This document shows, piece after piece, positions 4,877 to 16,394 of a stretch of 64,000 nt of DNA. The position numbers and the translations under genes are program-made. The DNA is from Agromyces agglutinans (lineage in GTDB: Bacteria > Actinomycetota > Actinomycetes > Actinomycetales > Microbacteriaceae), in contig NZ_WJIF01000010.1 of NCBI RefSeq assembly GCF_009647605.1, positions 1-64,000 of the forward strand, written 5' to 3'. The notes beneath the pieces are model-generated. The model was not told where the DNA came from. It ran no database searches and worked only from the letters and a program-made list of their open reading frames with translations. The stretch's first letter is position 1. Every line of letters starts with the position of its first letter.

Positions 4877-5479
4877 TCAGCGAAGGAGCGCCGCGAGTCG
4901 GGGCAGCTGGTCGGGATCCTCGAGCGCCGAGCCGACCGCGGCGACGCGCGCGCCGGCCTCGAGGAACGAGCCGACGTTGCCCGCGTCGAGCCCGCCGGTC
5001 GCGACGAACGAGATGCCGGGGAACGGCCCGCGCATCGCGCGGAACCAGCCTGCCCCGAGCGATGCGGCCGGGAAGGCCTTCAGCCAGGTGAGCCCGAGCG
5101 CCTGCGCGGCCATCACCTCGGTCGGCGTCGCGACGCCTGGCAGCGGCGCGAGGCCCGCGGCGAGCGCGGCCCGCACGACGGCCGCGTCGAGCCCGGGGCT
5201 CACGACGAACGAGGCGCCGGCGGATGCCGCGACCTCGACCTGTTCGACGGCGACCACGGTTCCGGCGCCGACGCGGGCGCCGCGCGCCCGGCCCGCCTCG
5301 GCGACGGCCGCGAGCGCCTCGACGTCCTCGTCGCGCTGGATGGGCAGTTCGACGACCTCGATGCCGAGGTCCCAGGCGGTGTTCGCGAGCTCGACGCTGC
5401 GCTCGACGCCCATGCCGCGGAAGATCGCCATGAGCGGTCGCCCGGCGAACAGGTCGTCGAAACTCGGGTTCGTGGTCAT
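4877..5479 (-). CDS. eda: 2-keto-3-deoxy-6-phosphogluconate (KDPG) aldolase
   Basis: A 200-aa class I aldolase cleaving KDPG to pyruvate and glyceraldehyde-3-phosphate in the cytoplasm. The sequence shows the catalytic Glu in VVELPIQRD (Glu44) and the Schiff-base lysine in WLKAFPAA (Lys134), with the phosphate-binding region ATGGLDAGNV after it. The ATG start overlaps the stop of the kinase gene upstream by four bases (ATGA), so the two are translationally coupled. Its substrate is the product of the neighbouring KDG kinase, making a complete lower branch from 2-keto-3-deoxygluconate. Confidence 0.92.
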   Translation of the reverse strand: MTTNPSFDDLFAGRPLMAIFRGMGVERSVELANTAWDLGIEVVELPIQRDEDVEALAAVAEAGRARGARVGAGTVVAVEQVEVAASAGASFVVSPGLDAAVVRAALAAGLAPLPGVATPTEVMAAQALGLTWLKAFPAASLGAGWFRAMRGPFPGISFVATGGLDAGNVGSFLEAGARVAAVGSALEDPDQLPRLAALLR

Positions 5480-6396
5480 GCGGCGGTCCCTTCGCCTCGG
5501 GGGAAGTCGGAGGTCGCGGCGAGCGCGATCGCGGCGCGTGCGTGGCCGGCGGCGAGTCGGCCGGCGGCATCGTGCCCGTCGAGCAGCGCGTCGAGGTGGC
5601 CCGCGGCGAATGCGTCGCCGGCGCCGACGACCTCGACCACGGCCACCGCCGGGGTGGCGACGAATGTCTCGACGCCGTCTCGGGTGACGGATGCCGCGCC
5701 GGTCGCGCCGTCCTTCACGACGACCTCCCGGGGTTCGGGCAGGAGGGCCCGCACCTCGGCGGCGCTTCGTGCTCCCCACAGCAGCTCGGCCTCGTCGAGT
5801 CCGACGAAGACGACGTCGGCACGTCGCGCGAGCGCGAGCAGGCGTTCCGCCGCGGCATCCGCCTGCCCGGCCGCCGCCCACAGCGCCGGCCGGTGGTTCA
5901 CATCGAACGACAGCGTCGCGGATGCCGCGGCGACACGGTCGAACGCGGCATCCGTGAATGCGGCGCACTCGGCCGACAGCGCCGGCGTGATGCCGCTCAG
6001 GTGCACCACGCGCACGTCGTCGAGCGGGAGCGCGTCGAGGAATGGCGGCGCGGTGCGGGAGGCAGCCGATCCGGCGCGGTAGTAGGTGACGGCGGCGCCC
6101 GGGTCCTTCACGTAGAGGCCGGTCGGAGCCGCGGGGTCGTGCACGAGCCAGCGGGTGTCGACGCCGCGCTCGGCCAGCTCGCCGGCGATTCGGCGACCGA
6201 GCGCGTCGTCGCCGAGGCGACCGGCGAAGGCTGCGGGCCGTCCGAGCGCGGCGAGGTGCGACGCGACGTTGGCCTCGGCGCCCGCGGCGTCGACGCGGAA
6301 GTCCTGCGCTCGCTCGAGCGGCTCGGCGGCGACGGGCACGACGAGCGCCATCACCTCGCCGATGGCGAGGACGTCGGGCTGCGGTCGACCGGTCAT
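5476..6396 (-). CDS. kdgK: 2-keto-3-deoxygluconate kinase (PfkB family)
   Basis: A 306-aa PfkB-family sugar kinase. It has the N-terminal AIGEVMALVVP, a GAEANVA glycine region and the C-terminal signature VVGAGDAFAAG holding the catalytic Asp. KDG specificity is inferred from the overlapping KDPG aldolase gene. The ATG at 6396 gives MTGRPQPDVLAIGE; longer readings run into the divergent promoter. First gene of a two-gene operon transcribed away from the deaminase-deacylase-IclR-RidA operon. Confidence 0.87.
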   Translation of the reverse strand: MTGRPQPDVLAIGEVMALVVPVAAEPLERAQDFRVDAAGAEANVASHLAALGRPAAFAGRLGDDALGRRIAGELAERGVDTRWLVHDPAAPTGLYVKDPGAAVTYYRAGSAASRTAPPFLDALPLDDVRVVHLSGITPALSAECAAFTDAAFDRVAAASATLSFDVNHRPALWAAAGQADAAAERLLALARRADVVFVGLDEAELLWGARSAAEVRALLPEPREVVVKDGATGAASVTRDGVETFVATPAVAVVEVVGAGDAFAAGHLDALLDGHDAAGRLAAGHARAAIALAATSDFPRGEGTAA

Positions 6397-6518
6397 GTCC
6401 CATATGCTGACCCCTGTGCAGCAGCAGCGCAAATGCGTTGCAGCATGTGCACAGCACCGCGTGAGCACCGCGTGAGCGTCGCGCGGCGCGGACCGGCAGC
6501 GATGGAAGCGAGCGACGG
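6397..6518. promoter_or_regulatory. divergent control region of the KDG/D-amino-sugar-acid cluster
   Basis: The 122-base space between the two operons holds GCAA-N5-TTGC (6429-6441), an overlapping CGCA-AA-TGCG element, and a perfect 11-bp direct repeat GCACCGCGTGA (6454-6464 and 6465-6475). These are the best candidate sites for the IclR regulator encoded downstream. I see no clear -35/-10 pair. Confidence 0.4.
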
Positions 6519-7877
6519 ATGCCCCACCTCGACACGTCAGCGCTCGCGGCCGCCGTCGCGGCCCTCGACGACGAGCGGCTGACGCCGGCCGACACGGGGC
6601 TGCCGGCACGCGCGGCCGGCTCGACCGTTCGCGAGTTCCTCGCGACCGCGCCGACGATCGACGAGTTCTGGACGCCGCTCGTGGTGCTCGACCGCAGCGC
6701 CCTCGAGCACAACGGCGACGTGATCCAACAGTGGGCGACCGGCCACGGCCTCGAGCTCATGCCGCACGGCAAGACGACGATGGCGCCCGCCCTGTGGCAG
6801 CTGCAGCTCGACCGTGGAGCAACGGGCCTCACGCTCGCCACACCGGGCCAGGTGCGCACGGCGCGCGACGTCGGCGTCCCGTCGATCCAGCTCGCCAACG
6901 CGATCGTCGCGCCGAACGCCCTCGCCTGGCTCGCCGGAGAACTCGCCGACCCGGCCTTCGCCTTCTGGTGCTGGGCCGACTCTGTGGCGACGGTCGAGGC
7001 CATGGAGCGCGGGCTCGCCGACTCCGGCGCCGACCGTGCGCTCGCCCGGCCGATCGACGTACTCGTCGAACTCGGCGCCGACGGCGGACGCACCGGTGCC
7101 CGCTCGGTCGACGAGGCGACGGCCGTCGCCGGCCGCGTCGCCGCCTCCCCCGTGCTCCGCCTCGCCGGCGTCGCCGGATACGAGGGCAGCCTCGGCCACG
7201 ATCGATCGACGGCCGCGCTCGCGGCGGTGCGCGGCTACCTCGATCGGATGCTCGAGCTGCTCGGCGCGGTGCGTGAGCTCGCCGATGACGACCGCGACGA
7301 CTGGATGCTCACCGCCGGAGGCAGCGCCTACCTCGACCTCGTGGCCGAGGCGTTCGCGCCCGCCACGGCAGACGCCGGCGTCCGCGTCGTGCTGCGCTCG
7401 GGCGCCTCGCTCGTGCACGACGAGGGCTTCTACGGCGGCATCTCCCCGCTCGAAGGCGAGCTCGCCGCCGCGATGCGCGGCTACGCGCGGGTCGTCTCCC
7501 ACCCCGAGCCCGGCCTCGCGCTGCTCGATGGAGGCAAGCGCGACTTCCCGTACGACGAGGGTCTGCCCGTGCCGCTCGCGGCGGGCCGCGACCTCGCGGC
7601 GGCGCGGCGGGCGGTCGCGACTGCGGGCCAGGCCGGCTCGGCCCGCCCCGGGTCATCCCTCGGCGATGCGCGGCCGCTCGGCGGGGCATCCGTCACCGCG
7701 CTCAACGACCAGCACGCCTACCTGCGATCGGATGCCCCGCTGCCCGTCGCCGTGGGCGACGTCGTCGCGCTCGGGCTCTCGCACCCGTGCACGGCGTTCG
7801 ACAAGCATCGCGTGCTTCCCGTCGTCGAAGGGCCGGATTCCGACCTCGTCGTCGGCCTCGTTCGGACGAGGTTCTAG
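6519..7877 (+). CDS. fold-type III PLP deaminase (D-serine dehydratase/D-threonine aldolase-like); predicted D-glucosaminate dehydratase
   Basis: A 452-aa PLP enzyme of the alanine-racemase-N/DSD superfamily. The PLP lysine is in MPHGKTTMAP (Lys85). The C-terminal metal site SHPC (His422, Cys424), which binds the divalent metal in D-serine dehydratases and D-threonine aldolases, is intact. Family members deaminate D-amino acids with a beta-hydroxyl to 2-oxo acids. D-glucosaminate fits this chemistry and would yield 2-keto-3-deoxygluconate, the substrate of the divergent kdgK. The next gene, an N-acyl-D-amino acid deacylase, starts directly after its stop, and RidA, which clears enamine/imine products, is in the same cluster. 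A general D-amino acid deaminase is the alternative. Confidence 0.85.
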   Translation: MPHLDTSALAAAVAALDDERLTPADTGLPARAAGSTVREFLATAPTIDEFWTPLVVLDRSALEHNGDVIQQWATGHGLELMPHGKTTMAPALWQLQLDRGATGLTLATPGQVRTARDVGVPSIQLANAIVAPNALAWLAGELADPAFAFWCWADSVATVEAMERGLADSGADRALARPIDVLVELGADGGRTGARSVDEATAVAGRVAASPVLRLAGVAGYEGSLGHDRSTAALAAVRGYLDRMLELLGAVRELADDDRDDWMLTAGGSAYLDLVAEAFAPATADAGVRVVLRSGASLVHDEGFYGGISPLEGELAAAMRGYARVVSHPEPGLALLDGGKRDFPYDEGLPVPLAAGRDLAAARRAVATAGQAGSARPGSSLGDARPLGGASVTALNDQHAYLRSDAPLPVAVGDVVALGLSHPCTAFDKHRVLPVVEGPDSDLVVGLVRTRF

Positions 7878-9470
7878 GTGGCGGAGACGACCCAGCGCGT
7901 GCTCATCCTCGACGTCGAGACCGTCGACGGCGAATCGCCGGTCGACGTGCTCGTGGAGGGCGGACGCATCGCGGCCCTCGCCCCGGCGGGCGTGCTCGAG
8001 GCCGAGGCATCCGCCATCGAGGGCCGCGGGCGGCTGGTCATGCCCGGCTTCGTCGACGCGCACTCGCACGCGGCCGCGCTGCTCGACGACCCCGGCGTGC
8101 AACTCGCGCAGCTGCGGCAGGGCATCACGACAGTCATCGCCGGTCAAGACGGCGTCGGCCCCGCACCCGGCGACGGCCGCTACGCGGCCGAGTACTTCGC
8201 GGCCATCGACGGGAGGCATCGCGGCTCTGCGGGCGGCGGCATCGGCGCCCTGCTCGCCGCGGCCGACGGCACCTCGCCGATCAACGTCGCCGCGCTCGTG
8301 CCCGCGGGCACCGTGCGGTTCGAGGTCATGTGCCGCGCGACGAGGGCGCCGTCGGCCGCCGAACTCGCCGCGATGGTCGCGCTCGTGCGCGAGGGGCTCG
8401 CCGAAGGCGCCGTGGGACTGTCGACCGGACTCGACTACGTGCCCGGCCTGTTCGCCTCGACCGACGAGCTCACCGCGCTCGCGCGACCCGTCGCCGAGGC
8501 CGGCGGCGTGTTCGTCTCGCACATGCGCGGCGGGTACGAGTCGGGATCCGCCTCCGGCATCGCCGAACTCACCGCGATCTCGCGCGGGTCGGGCGCGCCG
8601 ATCCACGTGTCGCACTTCCACGCCGAGCCGCACCTCGTGCTGGGCCTGCTCGACCGGCTCGAGGCCGACGGCATCGACGCGACCTTCGACGCGTACCCCT
8701 ACGGGCGCGGATGCAGCCTGCTCGGCATGCCGCTGCTGCCGCCCGAGATCTCGGTGCTGCCCGTCGACGCGCAGCTTGCCAGGCTCACCGACTCGGCCGA
8801 GCGCGAACGGCTGCTCGCCGAGTGGTTTCCGACGATCGTCGACTACCCGAGCCTCGGGCCGGACTGGCCGGCGATGCTCACCTTCGCGCACATCGGCGCG
8901 CCCGAGTACGACTGGGCGCACGGGAAGACCGTCGCCGAGGCATCCGTCACCGCCCGGCGCACGCCCGCCGAGTTCGCGCTCGACGTGCTCGTCGCGAGCC
9001 GGCTCGAGGTGAACGTGGTCATGGCCGTGCGCACGGAGCGCCGCGACGCCGACCTCGCGCGCATCCTCGCCCACCCCGCCGCGATGGGCGGGTCAGACGG
9101 CATCTTCGTCGGCCGGCATCCGCACCCGCGGGCGCGCGGCACGTTCGCGCGGTACCTCGAGCTGCTCGTGCGCGACGGGAGCCTCGACTGGGTGCGGGCC
9201 ACGGGGCTCGTCTCGAGTCGGGCCGTCGACCGCTTCGCGCTCGGTGACCGCGGACGCGTGCGCCCCGGCGCGATCGCCGACCTCGTGCTGGTCGACCCCG
9301 ACCGCGTCGGCGCCCGCGCGACCTACGACGACCCGCTCGCGACCGCGGTCGGCATCGACGACGTGCTCGTCGGCGGCATCCCGGTGCTCGCGGGCGGCGA
9401 GCTCACGGGCGAGGCGCCGGGGCGTGGCATCCGACGCGCATCTCGACCGACGGAACGGCAGGAGGCCTGA
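7878..9470 (+). CDS. N-acyl-D-amino-acid deacylase family amidohydrolase; predicted N-acetyl-D-glucosaminate deacetylase
   Basis: A 530-aa metal-dependent amidohydrolase. It has DAHSHA (His62, His64), the second histidine cluster HVSHFHAEPH, DAYPYGRG, and the late SDG...HPHPRARGTFARYL segment typical of D-aminoacylases. At the position where classical D-aminoacylases have a zinc-ligand Cys in a VGNCG context, this protein reads AGQDG (Asp91), so its metal centre may differ. The GTG start abuts the preceding TAG, implying coupled translation. In context it would deacetylate N-acetyl-D-glucosaminate to D-glucosaminate plus acetate; an N-acyl-D-amino acid substrate is the alternative. Confidence 0.85.
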   Translation: MAETTQRVLILDVETVDGESPVDVLVEGGRIAALAPAGVLEAEASAIEGRGRLVMPGFVDAHSHAAALLDDPGVQLAQLRQGITTVIAGQDGVGPAPGDGRYAAEYFAAIDGRHRGSAGGGIGALLAAADGTSPINVAALVPAGTVRFEVMCRATRAPSAAELAAMVALVREGLAEGAVGLSTGLDYVPGLFASTDELTALARPVAEAGGVFVSHMRGGYESGSASGIAELTAISRGSGAPIHVSHFHAEPHLVLGLLDRLEADGIDATFDAYPYGRGCSLLGMPLLPPEISVLPVDAQLARLTDSAERERLLAEWFPTIVDYPSLGPDWPAMLTFAHIGAPEYDWAHGKTVAEASVTARRTPAEFALDVLVASRLEVNVVMAVRTERRDADLARILAHPAAMGGSDGIFVGRHPHPRARGTFARYLELLVRDGSLDWVRATGLVSSRAVDRFALGDRGRVRPGAIADLVLVDPDRVGARATYDDPLATAVGIDDVLVGGIPVLAGGELTGEAPGRGIRRASRPTERQEA

Positions 9471-9471
9471 C

Positions 9472-10203
9472 ATGTCGCAGTCCGTCACGCGCGCCGCGCG
9501 CATCATCGACCGCATCGCGGGCGACCCGCGCACCGTCGCCGAACTCGCCGAGGAGTTCGGCCTGCACCGCTCGACGATGTTCCGCGAACTGCAGGCGCTC
9601 GAACAGGTGGGGTGGGTGCGGCGGCGGCCCAGCGGTCGCTACGCCCTCGGCACCCAACTCGCCGCGCTCTCCAAGCAGGCGCTCGACTCGCTCGACCTTC
9701 GCGACGTCGGCGGCGAGCACGTGCGGCGCCTGCACCGGCGCACCGGCAACACCGTGCACCTCGCCGCCCTCATGGACCGGTCGATCGTCTACGTCGACAA
9801 GGCCGAAGACGAGGCCGGCGTGCGCATGTACTCGCGCGTCGGCAAAGCCGTGATCCCCCACTGCTCAGCCGTCGGCAAGGCGATCCTCGCCGGGCTCGAC
9901 TCGCAGCGCCGCGACGAGGTGCTCGCCCGCACCACGTGGGAGCGGTACACCGACACCACCATCACGACGCGCGAGCGGTTCGACCGCGAACTCGCCGTCG
10001 TCTCAGCCCGCGGCTACGCGACCGACGACCGCGAGTTCGAGCCGTTCGTCAACTGCATCGCCGTGCCCATCACCTCGAGCGTGGGCGTCGTCGGCGCCGT
10101 CTCGGTCACGGCGATCCGCATGGTCGCCGACCTCGACCGGCTCGCCGTGCACCTGCCGATCATGCGCGAGACCGCCGACGCGATCTCGCGCGAGCTCACC
10201 TGA
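9472..10203 (+). CDS. IclR-family transcriptional regulator
   Basis: A 243-aa regulator with an N-terminal winged helix-turn-helix (TVAELAEEFGLHRSTMFREL, residues about 19-38) and a C-terminal IclR effector domain (YVDKAEDEAGVRMYSRVG, HCSAVGKAILAGL, CIAVPI). A strong AGGAGG lies six bases before the ATG, and the gene starts one base after the deacylase stop, so it belongs to the same operon. It probably senses a pathway intermediate (N-acetylglucosaminate, glucosaminate or KDG) and acts on the divergent region at 6397-6518. Confidence 0.93.
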   Translation: MSQSVTRAARIIDRIAGDPRTVAELAEEFGLHRSTMFRELQALEQVGWVRRRPSGRYALGTQLAALSKQALDSLDLRDVGGEHVRRLHRRTGNTVHLAALMDRSIVYVDKAEDEAGVRMYSRVGKAVIPHCSAVGKAILAGLDSQRRDEVLARTTWERYTDTTITTRERFDRELAVVSARGYATDDREFEPFVNCIAVPITSSVGVVGAVSVTAIRMVADLDRLAVHLPIMRETADAISRELT

Positions 10204-10207
10204 CCCT

Positions 10208-10229
10208 CGGATGCCCGCGCGGGCATCCG
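10208..10229. terminator. 22-bp perfect palindrome after iclR
   Basis: CGGATGCCCGC joined directly to its reverse complement, starting five bases after the iclR stop. It forms a stable hairpin and contains GGATGCC and GGCATCC as an inverted pair. It may end the iclR transcript or attenuate into ridA. Confidence 0.65.
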
Positions 10230-10290
10230 GCCCGCCCCGGCGACCGCCGGACCGACCACGACCGCCGATCACGCCATCACTGGAGGAACC

Positions 10291-10674
10291 ATGCCCAAGA
10301 CCGCCGTCACCCTGTCGAACGCCCCCAAGCCCGCCGGGCCGTACAGCCACGGGGTCGTCGCGAACGGATTCCTGTACACCGCCGGGTTCGGCCCGCAGGA
10401 CCCGGCCACCGGCCTCGTCGTCGAGGGCGGCGTGAAGGAGCAGACCCGCCAGGTGCTGCGCAACATCGGCGCCGTGCTCGCCGAGTACGGCCTCGGATTC
10501 GACGACGTCGTGAAGGTCACCGCGCACCTCGAGGACCTCGACGACTTCGCCGAGTACAACGAGGCCTACGCCGAGTTCTTCACCGAGCCGTACCCCGTGC
10601 GCACGACCGTCGGCTCGCGCCTTGCGAACATCCTCGTCGAGATCGACGTCGTCGCCGCGGTGCCCCAGGGCTGA
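10291..10674 (+). CDS. ridA: RidA-family enamine/imine deaminase
   Basis: A 127-aa small trimeric-type protein of the YjgF/YER057c/UK114 family, which hydrolyses reactive 2-aminoacrylate-type enamines and imines released by PLP dehydratases. The key arginine is in PVRTTVGSRL, and the YSHGVVANGFLYTAG and HLEDLDDFAEYN motifs are in place. TGGAGGAAC precedes the ATG. Its presence beside a PLP deaminase supports a dehydratase reaction there. A hairpin lies between it and iclR, so it may have its own promoter or be expressed at a different level. Confidence 0.93.
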   Translation: MPKTAVTLSNAPKPAGPYSHGVVANGFLYTAGFGPQDPATGLVVEGGVKEQTRQVLRNIGAVLAEYGLGFDDVVKVTAHLEDLDDFAEYNEAYAEFFTEPYPVRTTVGSRLANILVEIDVVAAVPQG

Positions 10675-10693
10675 CCCGGGCGGCCGAGAACGA

Positions 10694-10729
10694 CGGATGC
10701 CCCGTGATCGAGCGACCACGGGGCATCCG
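10694..10729. terminator. bidirectional terminator hairpin ridA/asd
   Basis: Perfect 13-bp inverted repeat CGGATGCCCCGTG / CACGGGGCATCCG (10694-10706 and 10717-10729) with a 10-base loop, between convergent ridA and asd. Again an inverted GGATGCC pair. Confidence 0.75.
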
Positions 10730-10746
10730 AGTTCCGAACGGGCGCG

Positions 10747-11826
<1,080 letters not shown>

Positions 11827-13235: not shown

Positions 13236-13538
13236 GAGAGATCTCCCGGGGAATGCCGTGGTCGGCACGAGGCTGGTGGTGTGGGGCGGGCGACGGATGC
13301 ATCGCCCGTCGGACCATCCTACGGATGCGGGCGTGACGCCTTCGCCATATGACGGCGGTCGTCCCGGGCCTGAACCGCAAGTGAACACCTTTCCGGAAAT
13401 TGGTCGGATAGCTGCAAGTTGTACGGACAAGCCCGCGAATCTGTCGCGAGATGTTCACCTATGTTTCGGGCCGCTGGCGGTTCCCCGGGCACGTCGCCCC
13501 GACAGACTCGGAATCCGATCGTCAGAAAGGACCCCACC
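13236..13538. other. 303-base divergent intergenic region lysC/phosphodiesterase
   Basis: Holds the promoters of lysC (minus) and the secreted phosphodiesterase (plus). I see a perfect 10-bp palindrome TTTCCGGAAA (13390-13399) and a -10-like TATGTT (13460-13465) on the plus strand without a good -35. No open reading frame or RNA is evident. Confidence 0.35.
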
Positions 13539-16394
13539 GTGCGAAGAAGAAACCGTACCCTCGCCGTCATGGCCGGCTGCCTGGGCGCTGTGCTCCTGCT
13601 GCCCGCCGTGCCCGCGTTCGCCCACGAGGGCGACGAAGCAGCCGAACCCGCGGCATCCGCACCCGCGGCATCCGCGTTCAGCGAGGACTTCGATGCGCTC
13701 ACCACCGCGCTCGGACCCTCGGTGCACGAGACCCACATCCCGAAGAGCACCCTCGGCTGGACGCCCACCGCGCCGTCGGGCTGGACCGTCTCGAACGAGG
13801 CATCCATGGGCGTCAAGGGCAAGAGCGAGTGGCGCGGATGGACCTTCGCCACGCCGTCGTTCTGGACCGCCGCGCAGGGCGGCCAGGGCCGCGAGGACTT
13901 CACCAAGGGCTCGGGCGTCATCGCCGTCGCCGACAACGACGAGTGGGACGACGGCAACAACCCGGGCGAGCAGCTGTTCGCGAGCACGCTCGCCTCGCCC
14001 GCGATCCCCGTGACCGGCGGCTCGACCGTCCACGTGAACTTCGATTCGAACTACCGTCAGACCGGACCGCAGGTCGCGGCGCTCGAGGTCTCGTTCGACG
14101 GCGGCGCCCCGCAGCGCCTCTTCGAGTACTCGACGGCGGTGCTCGGCGACCAGGTCTACCTGCAGAACCGCACGCTGACCCAGCCGGTCGCCGTGCCGCA
14201 GGGCGCCGCGTCGATGCAGGTCAGCTGGGTCATCGAGCAGGCCACGAACGACTGGTATTGGGCCATCGACGACGTCAGCGTCGACGCCGCGCCGCGCGCC
14301 GGCGCCGAGTCGCCGCTGCCGAAGCCGGGCCCCCAGCCCTCCGACGTGCCCGCCGGCATCAGCGACCGAAAGGTGCTGTTCATCGACTTCGACGGCGTGC
14401 GCTTCGACAAGCTCGAGGAGTACGCGACCCCGAACATCGACGCCCTCGCCGCCGAAGGGCAGATCGGCGTCGGGTACATGCAGGACAACGCGCTCGGCCC
14501 GACCGTGTCCGGGCACGGCCACGCCAACCTGCTCTCGGGCGTCTGGGTCGACAAGCACCGCTCCCCCGACAACAACTTCACCAACCCGAACATCGAGGCC
14601 TACCCCGATTTCCTCACCCGCCTCGAACAGGTGAATCCCGGGTTCTCGACCTTCTCGACGGCCGACTGGAAGCCCCTCAACGACCACCTCATCCTCCGGC
14701 CCGACGTGAAGCTGCAGCAGACCGGCGCGTCGGCCGCGGCCACCGATGCGCAGAGCGTCGAGGACGCCGTGGAGGTGCTCGGCACGCGCGATCCCGATGC
14801 GATGGTCGTCTACCTCCACAACGGGGATGCCACCGGCCACGCCTACACGGCCGAATCGCCGCAGTACCGGACGACGATCGAGACGCTCGACCAGCAGGTC
14901 GGCCGGCTGGTCGACGCGATCAGGGCGCGCGCGACCTATTCCGAGGAGGACTGGCTGATCCTCGCGTCGACCGACCACGGCTTCACGGGATACGGCCACG
15001 GCGGCGACCAGCACCTCACGCGCATGATCTGGACCCTCGCCTCGGGCGGCGACGTGCCCGCGACCGGAGCCGCGACGAGCCAGTGGCGGCAGGTCGACAT
15101 CGCTCCGACCGTCTTCCGGCACCTCGGCGTGGCGATCGACCCCGCCTGGGGCCTCGAGGGCGTGCCGATCGGCACGGCGTCGACCGATCCGTTCGACACG
15201 GTCGCCGGCAGCCTCCGGGCCGTCGTCGACGAGCCGGCCAAGCCGGCGTACTCGGGCGGCTGGACGAAGCAGGCACCCGAGGGCTGGGCGATCGACGAGC
15301 GCACGCCCGCGGTGGGCGTGAGCGAGTACCGCGGCTGGTCGTTCATGGACGGCGAGTTCTGGGCGACGAGCGAGGAGGGACAGGGACGCGGCTCGTTCGT
15401 GCGGGCGCGCGATGTGGTCGCGGTCGCCGACCCCGACGAGTGGAACGACCTCGGCAACCCCGCCGGCAGCGGCGCCCGTTTCGATTCGACGCTGTACTCG
15501 CCGTGGCAGCCGGTGCGCCCCGGCGGTGCGGTCGACGTCTCGTTCCTCCAGCACTACCGGCACATGACGGCCGGCGTCCCGCAGCACGCCGAGGTCGTGG
15601 CCGAGTTCGACGACGGCACGAGCCAGGTGCTCTGGAGCCGCGACGGCGCCACGCAGGGGCTCCTGTTCGAGGTCAACCAGCCGGTCGCGCTGTCGACCGT
15701 CGCCCCGGACGGCGACGTGAGCCGGGTGCGCATCGGATGGCGCCTCTCGGACGGTGGCAACAACGGCTACTGGGCGATCGACGCCCCAGCGATCCGTGCC
15801 GATGCGGCGGTCGCTCCGACGGTCAGCGCATCGATCGCCGACGGCGCGCTGCTGCGCGGCAAGGCTGACGTCACGATGACGGTCGCCGGCGAACAGCTCG
15901 AAGCCTTCCACGCCCAGTTGTACACCGCGGACGGTTCGCAGGTGCCGTCGGTCAAGGGCTACCAGTGGGCGCCGACGACCGACTCGCTCACGCTGCCGGC
16001 GGTCGACTTCGGCGCCCTCGCCGACGGCCGCTACACGTTCGTGTTCTCCGCGAAGAGCAGGAACGGGCTGCGCGACGAGTTGAAGGTCGGCGTCGTGGTC
16101 GACAACTCGCGACCGGAGTTGGAGATCACCGTCGCCGACGGTCGGGTCGCGCTCGTGGCATCCGATGCCGTCGGCCTGCGTCGTGCCGCGGTGAACCTGT
16201 ACGACGCGGGCAATGCGAGGCTCCTGAAGGCGGTCGGATCGACGCCCGCGGCGACGCCGATCGCCACGGCCGAATGGGCCGGTGACTGGGCGCTGCCGAC
16301 GGGCCTCGCTGCGGGGACCTACACGGCGCGCGCCGCCGTCACCGATCTCGCGGGCAACACGCGGACGGTCACGGCGACGGTGACCGTTCCGTAG
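13539..16394 (+). CDS. secreted alkaline-phosphatase-superfamily phosphodiesterase with duplicated flanking domain
   Basis: A 951-aa exported protein. GTG start with AGAAAGGA upstream; signal peptide with basic RRRNR, a hydrophobic core and AFA cleavage near residue 28. Residues about 50-260 form a beta-rich domain (GWT...YRGW-like, QGRGDF, VAVAD-DEWDD, WAIDD). The centre (about 280-560) is a type I phosphodiesterase/phosphatase fold: metal-binding FIDFDGVRFDKL, nucleophile region GPTVSGHGHANLLSG, GDATGHAY and STDHGFTGYGHGG. Residues about 570-760 repeat the first domain (YRGWSF, QGRGSF, VAVADPDEWND, YWAIDAPAI). The C-terminus holds Ig-like modules. No sortase motif or C-terminal anchor is visible, so it is probably free in the medium. 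Substrate unknown. Stands alone, with a terminator after it. Confidence 0.85.
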   Translation: MRRRNRTLAVMAGCLGAVLLLPAVPAFAHEGDEAAEPAASAPAASAFSEDFDALTTALGPSVHETHIPKSTLGWTPTAPSGWTVSNEASMGVKGKSEWRGWTFATPSFWTAAQGGQGREDFTKGSGVIAVADNDEWDDGNNPGEQLFASTLASPAIPVTGGSTVHVNFDSNYRQTGPQVAALEVSFDGGAPQRLFEYSTAVLGDQVYLQNRTLTQPVAVPQGAASMQVSWVIEQATNDWYWAIDDVSVDAAPRAGAESPLPKPGPQPSDVPAGISDRKVLFIDFDGVRFDKLEEYATPNIDALAAEGQIGVGYMQDNALGPTVSGHGHANLLSGVWVDKHRSPDNNFTNPNIEAYPDFLTRLEQVNPGFSTFSTADWKPLNDHLILRPDVKLQQTGASAAATDAQSVEDAVEVLGTRDPDAMVVYLHNGDATGHAYTAESPQYRTTIETLDQQVGRLVDAIRARATYSEEDWLILASTDHGFTGYGHGGDQHLTRMIWTLASGGDVPATGAATSQWRQVDIAPTVFRHLGVAIDPAWGLEGVPIGTASTDPFDTVAGSLRAVVDEPAKPAYSGGWTKQAPEGWAIDERTPAVGVSEYRGWSFMDGEFWATSEEGQGRGSFVRARDVVAVADPDEWNDLGNPAGSGARFDSTLYSPWQPVRPGGAVDVSFLQHYRHMTAGVPQHAEVVAEFDDGTSQVLWSRDGATQGLLFEVNQPVALSTVAPDGDVSRVRIGWRLSDGGNNGYWAIDAPAIRADAAVAPTVSASIADGALLRGKADVTMTVAGEQLEAFHAQLYTADGSQVPSVKGYQWAPTTDSLTLPAVDFGALADGRYTFVFSAKSRNGLRDELKVGVVVDNSRPELEITVADGRVALVASDAVGLRRAAVNLYDAGNARLLKAVGSTPAATPIATAEWAGDWALPTGLAAGTYTARAAVTDLAGNTRTVTATVTVP

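Follow-up and report, generated by a model that had tools for sequence, protein, structure and literature searches.

The closest described counterpart of the locus analysed here is the ong pathway of Pseudoalteromonas prydzensis ACAM 620, in which OngB, OngC and KdgK were found by deletion and assay to convert N-acetyl-D-glucosaminate (GlcNAc1A) to 2-keto-3-deoxygluconate (KDG) 6-phosphate, and the RidA protein OngD is required for growth (PMC9537276). OngC also deaminates D-Ser and D-Thr, and a search through 12,220 genomes of terrestrial and 2,455 of marine origin, reported in the same text, located the whole pathway in Gammaproteobacteria and in a single Achromobacter (PMC9537276); in two Aeromonas, another study describes OngB and OngC as distant or absent (PMC11653859). 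Here we analysed a stretch of 64,000 nucleotides of Agromyces agglutinans (contig NZ_WJIF01000010.1, positions 1 to 64,000; hereafter the window), from a genome of 3.9 Mb with a mean G+C of about 72%, which carries a cluster of six genes at positions 4877-10674. We consider it probable that this cluster is an actinobacterial pathway for GlcNAc1A and D-glucosaminate. As far as sequence comparison can tell, it works like ong but is not of the ong lineage; the substrate, the reaction order and the direction of regulation are our predictions. A literature search outside of which most subscription journals lie turned up no account of a route of this kind in Actinomycetota.

Profile searches of the translated window genes found all six open, in family and with intact catalytic motifs, bearing out the families and arrangement given in an initial annotation of this DNA. 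On the minus strand, two genes that share 4 nt code for an eda-type 2-keto-3-deoxy-6-phosphogluconate (KDPG)/2-keto-4-hydroxyglutarate (KHG) aldolase (4877..5479; PF01081, E 2.4e-35) and KdgK, a PfkB kinase of the KDG kinase type (5476..6396; PF00294, E 4.6e-47). They are divergent from four plus-strand genes: an OngC-like fold-III pyridoxal phosphate (PLP) deaminase (6519..7877; PF14031 (D-ser_dehydrat), E 1.5e-16, and PF01168), an OngB-like deacylase of the D-aminoacylase fold (7878..9470; Amidohydro_3, PF07969, E 3.1e-19), an IclR-family regulator (9472..10203; IclR_C, PF01614, E 6.4e-39; PF09339, E 2.3e-12) and a RidA-family enamine/imine deaminase with a predicted OngD-like role (10291..10674; PF01042, E 2.1e-34; TIGR00004, 116 bits, over the cut-off of 106.25). 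In the pathway that we propose, GlcNAc1A, the aldonic acid that lytic polysaccharide monooxygenases (LPMOs) leave at the end of the chitin chains they cut, would be split by the deacylase into D-glucosaminate and acetate, and the PLP deaminase would convert D-glucosaminate to KDG and NH3, while RidA would clear enamine/imine intermediates. KdgK and Eda would then take KDG through KDPG to pyruvate and glyceraldehyde 3-phosphate, and the IclR regulator would act on the divergent promoter region between kdgK and the deaminase gene (ongC).

The cytoplasmic roles are those of the ong clusters of Pseudoalteromonas and Vibrio: a D-aminoacylase-fold deacylase, a fold-III PLP deaminase, RidA, a KDG kinase and a local regulator. 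The joint clustering of deacylase, PLP deaminase, RidA and KDG kinase genes, a hallmark of ong, is found here and is conserved in the genus, and the likeness of logic to a marine gammaproteobacterial pathway, suggested earlier for this cluster, holds good for the Pseudoalteromonas system (PMC9537276). The KDPG aldolase of the window cluster likewise has its counterpart in Vibrio clusters. In Vibrio sp. THAF191d (L057), GH20, eda, kdgK, an SSS-like transporter, RidA and OngB genes are divergent from OngC and an RpiR-type regulator (the SSS and GH20 names were read from translations). The differences lie elsewhere. The ong regulator OngR is of the MurR/RpiR type, whereas that of the window is IclR, and ong has an SSS transporter, TonB receptors and an OngA-type GH20, of which the window cluster has none (SSS was looked for at the cluster only); its lack of a transporter or chitinase gene had been noted correctly from the start. 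Moreover, the ong deacylase has Cys and Lys254 where that of the window has Asp and His, and the deaminases lie in different parts of the tree. Deacylase and deaminase thus appear to belong to lineages separate from ong, with regulator and transporters of other families. Uronate or gluconate catabolism was rejected as a reading of the cluster, with no uronate gene among the scanned cluster neighbours and a deaminase that would be superfluous.

The linkage of kdgK and eda to the other genes was followed in 199 genomes, the source genome included; a deaminase was matched in 82 of them, strongly (E <= 1e-40) in 72. The genus accounts for 35 of the strong matches; 33 of these genomes have a window-type deacylase near the deaminase, and 28 of the 33 (A. 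agglutinans included) both kdgK and eda near the pair. As 14 of the 35 same-genus genomes, again with A. agglutinans among them, were read as loci of only about 4 kb, ridA, iclR, Opp and GH4 are under-counted. This linkage favours a sugar-acid route, because plain D-amino acid catabolism would not explain kdgK-eda. It thus speaks against an alternative that we judge unlikely, namely general N-acyl-D-amino acid degradation (e.g., of N-acetyl-D-Ser or N-acetyl-D-Thr) by the deacylase, a D-Ser/D-Thr deaminase and RidA, with kdgK-eda lying nearby for other reasons. Yet OngC itself acts on D-Ser and D-Thr (PMC9537276), which is in favour of this alternative, and so are look-alike clusters in Comamonadaceae and Azospirillum that have oligopeptide ABC transporters and no kdgK. 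These look-alikes of the ong layout are D-amino acid clusters on plasmids (L058 and L062, respectively), in which an Opp-type ABC transporter accompanies a D-aminoacylase and a gene annotated as alanine racemase. Their deacylases both keep Cys97 (numbering of PpOngB, the P. prydzensis enzyme), which the actinobacterial types do not; that of Comamonadaceae combines it with Thr292, as expected for a D-aminoacylase. On plasmids of Klebsiella variicola (L032) and Pantoea (L033), a deaminase of the family is accompanied by IclR, RidA and an ABC transporter for amino acids, and neither a deacylase nor kdgK was matched there; this set probably serves D-amino acids.

An operator shared by the divergent gaps also argues for one pathway. 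The scan, at no more than one mismatch to GTTGCNNNATNNGCAAC on either strand, found GTTGC-N7-GCAAC in 20 of 24 gaps between kdgK and ongC, the exceptions being the window and L048 (two mismatches each), L035 and L072. The site, which IclR may bind, lies at 6429..6453 in the window in a degenerate copy, with three mismatches to the longer form of the pattern. It occurs in all nine fetched loci of the genus g109 and, in L065, once more ahead of the deaminase gene; elsewhere in the 69 scanned loci (1.36 Mb) there were two sites, and one base-shuffle of the same sequence gave two. In G193, where kdgK-eda lies about 0.4 Mb from the deaminase gene, a copy stands about 60 nt ahead of kdgK, and such a shared operator would not be expected if the genes merely served N-acyl-D-amino acids. 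Operator-like sites in G076 and G193 (L213, L214) have no pathway gene adjoining. A search of the A. agglutinans genome for a distant trans regulon with the extended pattern matched this gap only, and the reversed control also gave one match.

The neighbours of the pathway genes in relatives bear on the substrate. In G127 and G145, both of which carry AA10, genes for a BCCT transporter, GH20, deacylase, deaminase and RidA all run in one direction, with GH20 and deacylase genes overlapping by 4 nt; Cellulosimicrobium funkei (L111) has the order GH20-deacylase-deaminase-RidA. In G450, nagB, a ROK regulator and GH20 adjoin a Tsukamurella-type deacylase and deaminase, and in G116, eda is followed by GH20, 41 kb away from the deaminase. 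In G109 (L211:6284-8422), an operator-like site is followed by a short deacylase fragment and then GH20, which looks like a remnant of a second GH20-deacylase unit. GntP-family permeases are found in the clusters of Tsukamurella (L034), Arthrobacter (L060), G109 and G470, that of L034 reaching 373.5 bits to the gluconate model (cut-off 292.75). Among the nine fetched g109 loci (11 genomes of 6-10 Mb matched), seven have the GntP gene and eight have kdgK; the A. agglutinans genome has no GntP gene. GH20 and GntP partners of this kind speak against N-acyl-D-amino acid degradation. Taken together with the operator, the AA10 association described below and the GH4 and NagK-like kinase genes of the genus, they support the oxidised amino sugar that had been put forward as substrate, though the substrate itself is still a prediction. 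GH20 genes also occur beside deacylases of the Cys type: in L079 (G094), a Cys-type D-aminoacylase, RidA and the deaminase have GH20 and a gene of the NagB family nearby, and in L129 (6025-11356), a metagenome-assembled genome of Roseateles, a betaproteobacterium, GH20 and RidA are transcribed divergently from deaminase and Cys-type deacylase genes.

Of the 21 same-genus genomes read as loci of 20 kb, 16 have an Opp-type ABC transporter no more than 10 kb away, usually just past kdgK-eda. Four loci were read further, and in three of them (G023, G026 and G034), GH4 and a BadF/NagK-like kinase follow past Opp, with a ROK regulator confirmed in G023; the fourth (G038) has mqo (malate:quinone oxidoreductase) instead of GH4 and kinase. 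Twenty of the 35 same-genus genomes have GH4, whose best solved match is a putative 6-phospho-beta-glucosidase (5c3m, E 2.6e-84), at a distance of up to 11 kb from the deaminase. The window is without this Opp/GH4/kinase part, that side being occupied by MerR and mqo, and a GH4 locus elsewhere in the A. agglutinans genome was rejected as the displaced module, since only a 34% GH4 matched among the queries. We also rejected the Opp transporter as proof of peptide uptake, since it adjoins kdgK-eda in the same genus too. Opp and GntP are nevertheless weaker evidence than GH20, kdgK-eda and the operator, because both can serve D-amino acids or D-peptides.

LPMOs acting on chitin are well known from actinobacteria, and the association of the pathway with AA10 was tested across the 199 genomes. 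Strong deaminases are present in 15 of 18 AA10 genomes and in 57 of 181 without AA10 (Fisher p 2.5e-5, kinship ignored); the ten genomes among the 82 whose deaminase match was weaker (E above 1e-40) were treated as lacking it. The difference is seen within the genus (8/8 against 27/52, p 0.009) and in other families (6/9 against 13/70, p 0.005), and it is a further point against the N-acyl-D-amino acid alternative. One of the 15 genomes with both AA10 and deaminase (G083) has no Asp-type deacylase near. The search for AA10 genes that the initial annotation had asked for thus gave a positive answer across relatives and a negative one at home, for no AA10 was found in the searched A. agglutinans genome, where one GH18 and three GH20 matches lie away from the cluster. 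As its own genome is without AA10, the strain would be a scavenger, using oxidised sugar that is released by others.

Several findings weigh against a GlcNAc1A pathway, among them those on the deacylase. According to the structural study, PpOngB is the GlcNAc1A deacetylase of a new carbohydrate esterase (CE) family with a subtype V metal site of Cys97, His222 and His252 and the catalytic residue Asp368; the substrate carboxylate is held by Lys254, Tyr285 and Arg379, with Lys254 strictly conserved there and in D-aminoacylases, and the specificity code is Ser292 plus Gln298 (PMC12017989). The window deacylase has a fold family in common with PpOngB (9kb1) and keeps the equivalents of the HxH motif, the metal-ligand His pair, the catalytic Asp, Tyr194, Tyr285, Arg379 and Ser292. 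However, the zinc-ligand Cys is replaced, GNCG having become GQDG with Asp91 in place of Cys97, while Glu226 is Tyr and Lys254 is His; Ser290 and Ser291 are Gly and Cys. Asp91 may itself be a metal ligand in a putative Asp/His/His site. The carboxylate site therefore retains its Tyr and Arg, whereas its Lys is His in the window type and Thr in the Tsukamurella type. The changes are not peculiar to this gene: Asp97 and Tyr226 are present in 38/38 window-type deacylases and His254 in 37/38 (one gap), and all 14 Tsukamurella-type deacylases of at least 50% identity have Asp97, Tyr226 and Thr254. The combination of Asp97 and Lys254 in several archaeal and other relatives means that Asp97 is not exclusive to the actinobacterial types. 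The Vibrio deacylase, by comparison, keeps Cys97, Glu226, Lys254, Ser290-292 and Gln298, and the window enzyme is 30% identical to Vibrio OngB. Because the metal ligand and Lys254 differ, we rejected membership of the window deacylase in the OngB family.

Residue 292 in part of the relatives, and the solved structures, point in the direction of D-aminoacylases. At position 292, the window has Ser, but only 27 of 38 window-type deacylases do so, the other 11 having Thr, the D-aminoacylase residue, as do 14/14 of the Tsukamurella-type deacylases just mentioned; position 298 aligns as Leu in one alignment and as Arg in another, the loop alignment being unsure. The nearest solved relatives are N-acyl-D-glutamate deacylase (3gip, E 6.3e-51) and D-aminoacylase (1m7j, E 1e-46), not PpOngB (9kb1, E 2.1e-32); 9g5m, an amidohydrolase, is also among the top-scoring ones. 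Together with the deaminase, whose best solved match is a D-serine deaminase (3gwq, E 3.9e-56), this gives the N-acyl-D-amino acid alternative the closest solved enzymes on both sides, and the published GlcNAc1A code, partly missing in the deacylase, and Thr292 in many relatives fit it too. On the other hand, in 3gip and 1m7j the Cys ligand and Lys254 are conserved (PMC12017989), unlike in the window deacylase, and Comamonadaceae and Azospirillum relatives sit with peptide transporters and no kdgK-eda. The D-aminoacylases AfDam and BbDam have Cys/His/His, Lys254 and Thr292, where the window has Asp, His and Ser at the three differing positions.

In the deaminase, the PLP lysine K85 (PHGKT) and metal pair H422/C424 (SHPC), the hallmark residues of OngC, are identical in 72/72 aligned homologues, as expected from the motifs first noted as intact. 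It belongs to the same fold-III PLP family as 3gwq and D-threonine aldolase, but its context is that of a sugar acid and not of D-amino acids. In a tree of 72 deaminases, for which, as for the residue table, deacylases below 440 aa, deaminases below 340 aa and matches below 150 or 100 bits were excluded, Vibrio OngC does not group with the window deaminase, which counts against the GlcNAc1A reading and speaks for a lineage apart from ong. Vibrio OngC groups instead with Agrobacterium (100/96) and next with Roseateles/Comamonadaceae (100/94), although this position is uncertain because its branch is long. Four divergent actinobacterial deaminases sit weakly near this group, and support is low for some of the inner branches. 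The Curtobacterium deaminase forms a pair with that of one same-family genome.

The distribution of the genes adds further points on the opposing side. Within the genus, both kdgK and eda are missing in G004, G011, G046 and G047, and eda in G017. Outside the genus, 26 of 39 labels have an Asp-type deacylase and 13 of these 26 at least one of kdgK, eda, GntP, GH20 and an MHS-type MFS transporter, but kdgK and eda together lie within 10 kb in only 8/26 (three of the labels are additional copies: G031b and G029b come from same-genus genomes, G132b from G132). With 28/33 in the genus and 8/26 beyond, linkage is therefore strong in the genus and patchy outside, and the expectation that kdgK-eda stay with the other four genes in relatives stood for the genus only. 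Phylum-wide, 37/396 genomes have a deacylase match (E <= 1e-40), and of 17 fetched loci, 11 have a deaminase adjoining and six have none nearby; a survey of genome contigs took in the best 80 of 113 confirmed loci, which included few from actinobacteria, so that the taxonomic range is at least the one given here. No eda was seen in the nine fetched g109 loci, and GH20 is near the deaminase in 0/35 same-genus genomes and in 4/39 other labels, one of the four (G094) being of the Cys type. DsdX, a D-serine transporter, belongs to the GntP family (220 bits), Opp transporters also adjoin D-aminoacylase sets without kdgK, and no transporter gene was found among the scanned genes of the window cluster. 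The operator was not found at the unlinked kdgK-eda of G165 and G189 (two of three such loci read), and the short pattern occurs six times in the G193 genome against ten for the reversed control; being no commoner than its control genome-wide, the operator is evidence by position and not by number. As for AA10, it is absent from the A. agglutinans genome, its test takes no account of kinship, and the family's other genera show no clear difference (1/1 against 17/59, p 0.3).

The patchiness bears also on an unrelated assembly, in which the genes were co-inherited without forming one pathway. Gene order differs among genera, and of the 26 labels outside the genus, 18 are without a nearby kdgK, eda or both, but the conserved operator, the retained divergent layout and the overlapping genes make such an assembly very improbable. 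Two side observations concern variants of the arrangement. In L069 (G133; 7001-10800), IclR-kdgK is divergent from deaminase-eda with the operator present, and a deacylase was not matched in the 12-kb stretch; this would suit free D-glucosaminate. On a Microbacterium sp. plasmid (L035:7992-12227), the cluster recurs with kdgK, deaminase and deacylase each broken up in annotation or matching, through decay or sequencing errors.

The kinase and aldolase admit a further reading, in which the same route serves another 2-acylamido-2-deoxy-aldonic acid, either the C4 epimer N-acetyl-D-galactosaminate, leading to 2-keto-3-deoxygalactonate (KDGal), or an N-acyl-glucosaminate derived from lipids or from glycans of another kind. 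The closest solved relative of KdgK is the KDG kinase 1v19 (E 2e-37), and its top NCBIfam models, below cut-off, are bifunctional KDG/KDGal kinases. The aldolase has PF01081 and the motif LKAFP, which we take to be the site of its catalytic lysine. It scores 143.4 bits with the eda model TIGR01182 (cut-off 156.05) and 125 with the 2-keto-3-deoxy-6-phosphogalactonate (KDPGal) aldolase model, under both cut-offs, and its motifs are mixed between the two. Such scores, a deacylase pocket unlike that of OngB, and GH20 enzymes, which as a group are not specific for GlcNAc, all leave room for another aldonate; the AA10 association and the NagB/NagK-like neighbours in relatives favour GlcNAc, and we hold this reading to be improbable.

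Beyond the cluster, a profile scan found a MerR regulator and, further out, mqo on the kdgK-eda side; across from them, past RidA, are genes of the aspartate-semialdehyde dehydrogenase and aspartokinase families. At 13419-16394, the window codes for a large type I phosphodiesterase/nucleotide pyrophosphatase protein with bacterial Ig-like domains.

A GlcNAc1A pathway thus accords best with the linkage, the operator and the partners in relatives, and we tentatively extend it as follows. The oxidised-chitin pathway of Actinomycetota may be one of their own, put together alongside the proteobacterial one out of different branches of the shared families, using an Asp/His/His deacetylase for GlcNAc1A and an IclR operator GTTGC-N7-GCAAC; in the same genus, GlcNAc-GlcNAc1A would be imported by Opp, phosphorylated by the NagK-like kinase and split by GH4 in the cytoplasm, and the GlcNAc1A passed to the cluster. 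The chitobiase SmCHB leaves the dimer GlcNAc-GlcNAc1A uncut (PMC13325158), and the GH4 and kinase route would fill this gap. If this is true, actinobacteria, including strains without AA10, would recover carbon and nitrogen from oxidised chitin, and the two lineages would be a natural test of how a D-aminoacylase fold has repeatedly been turned to a sugar acid, and with its metal site altered.

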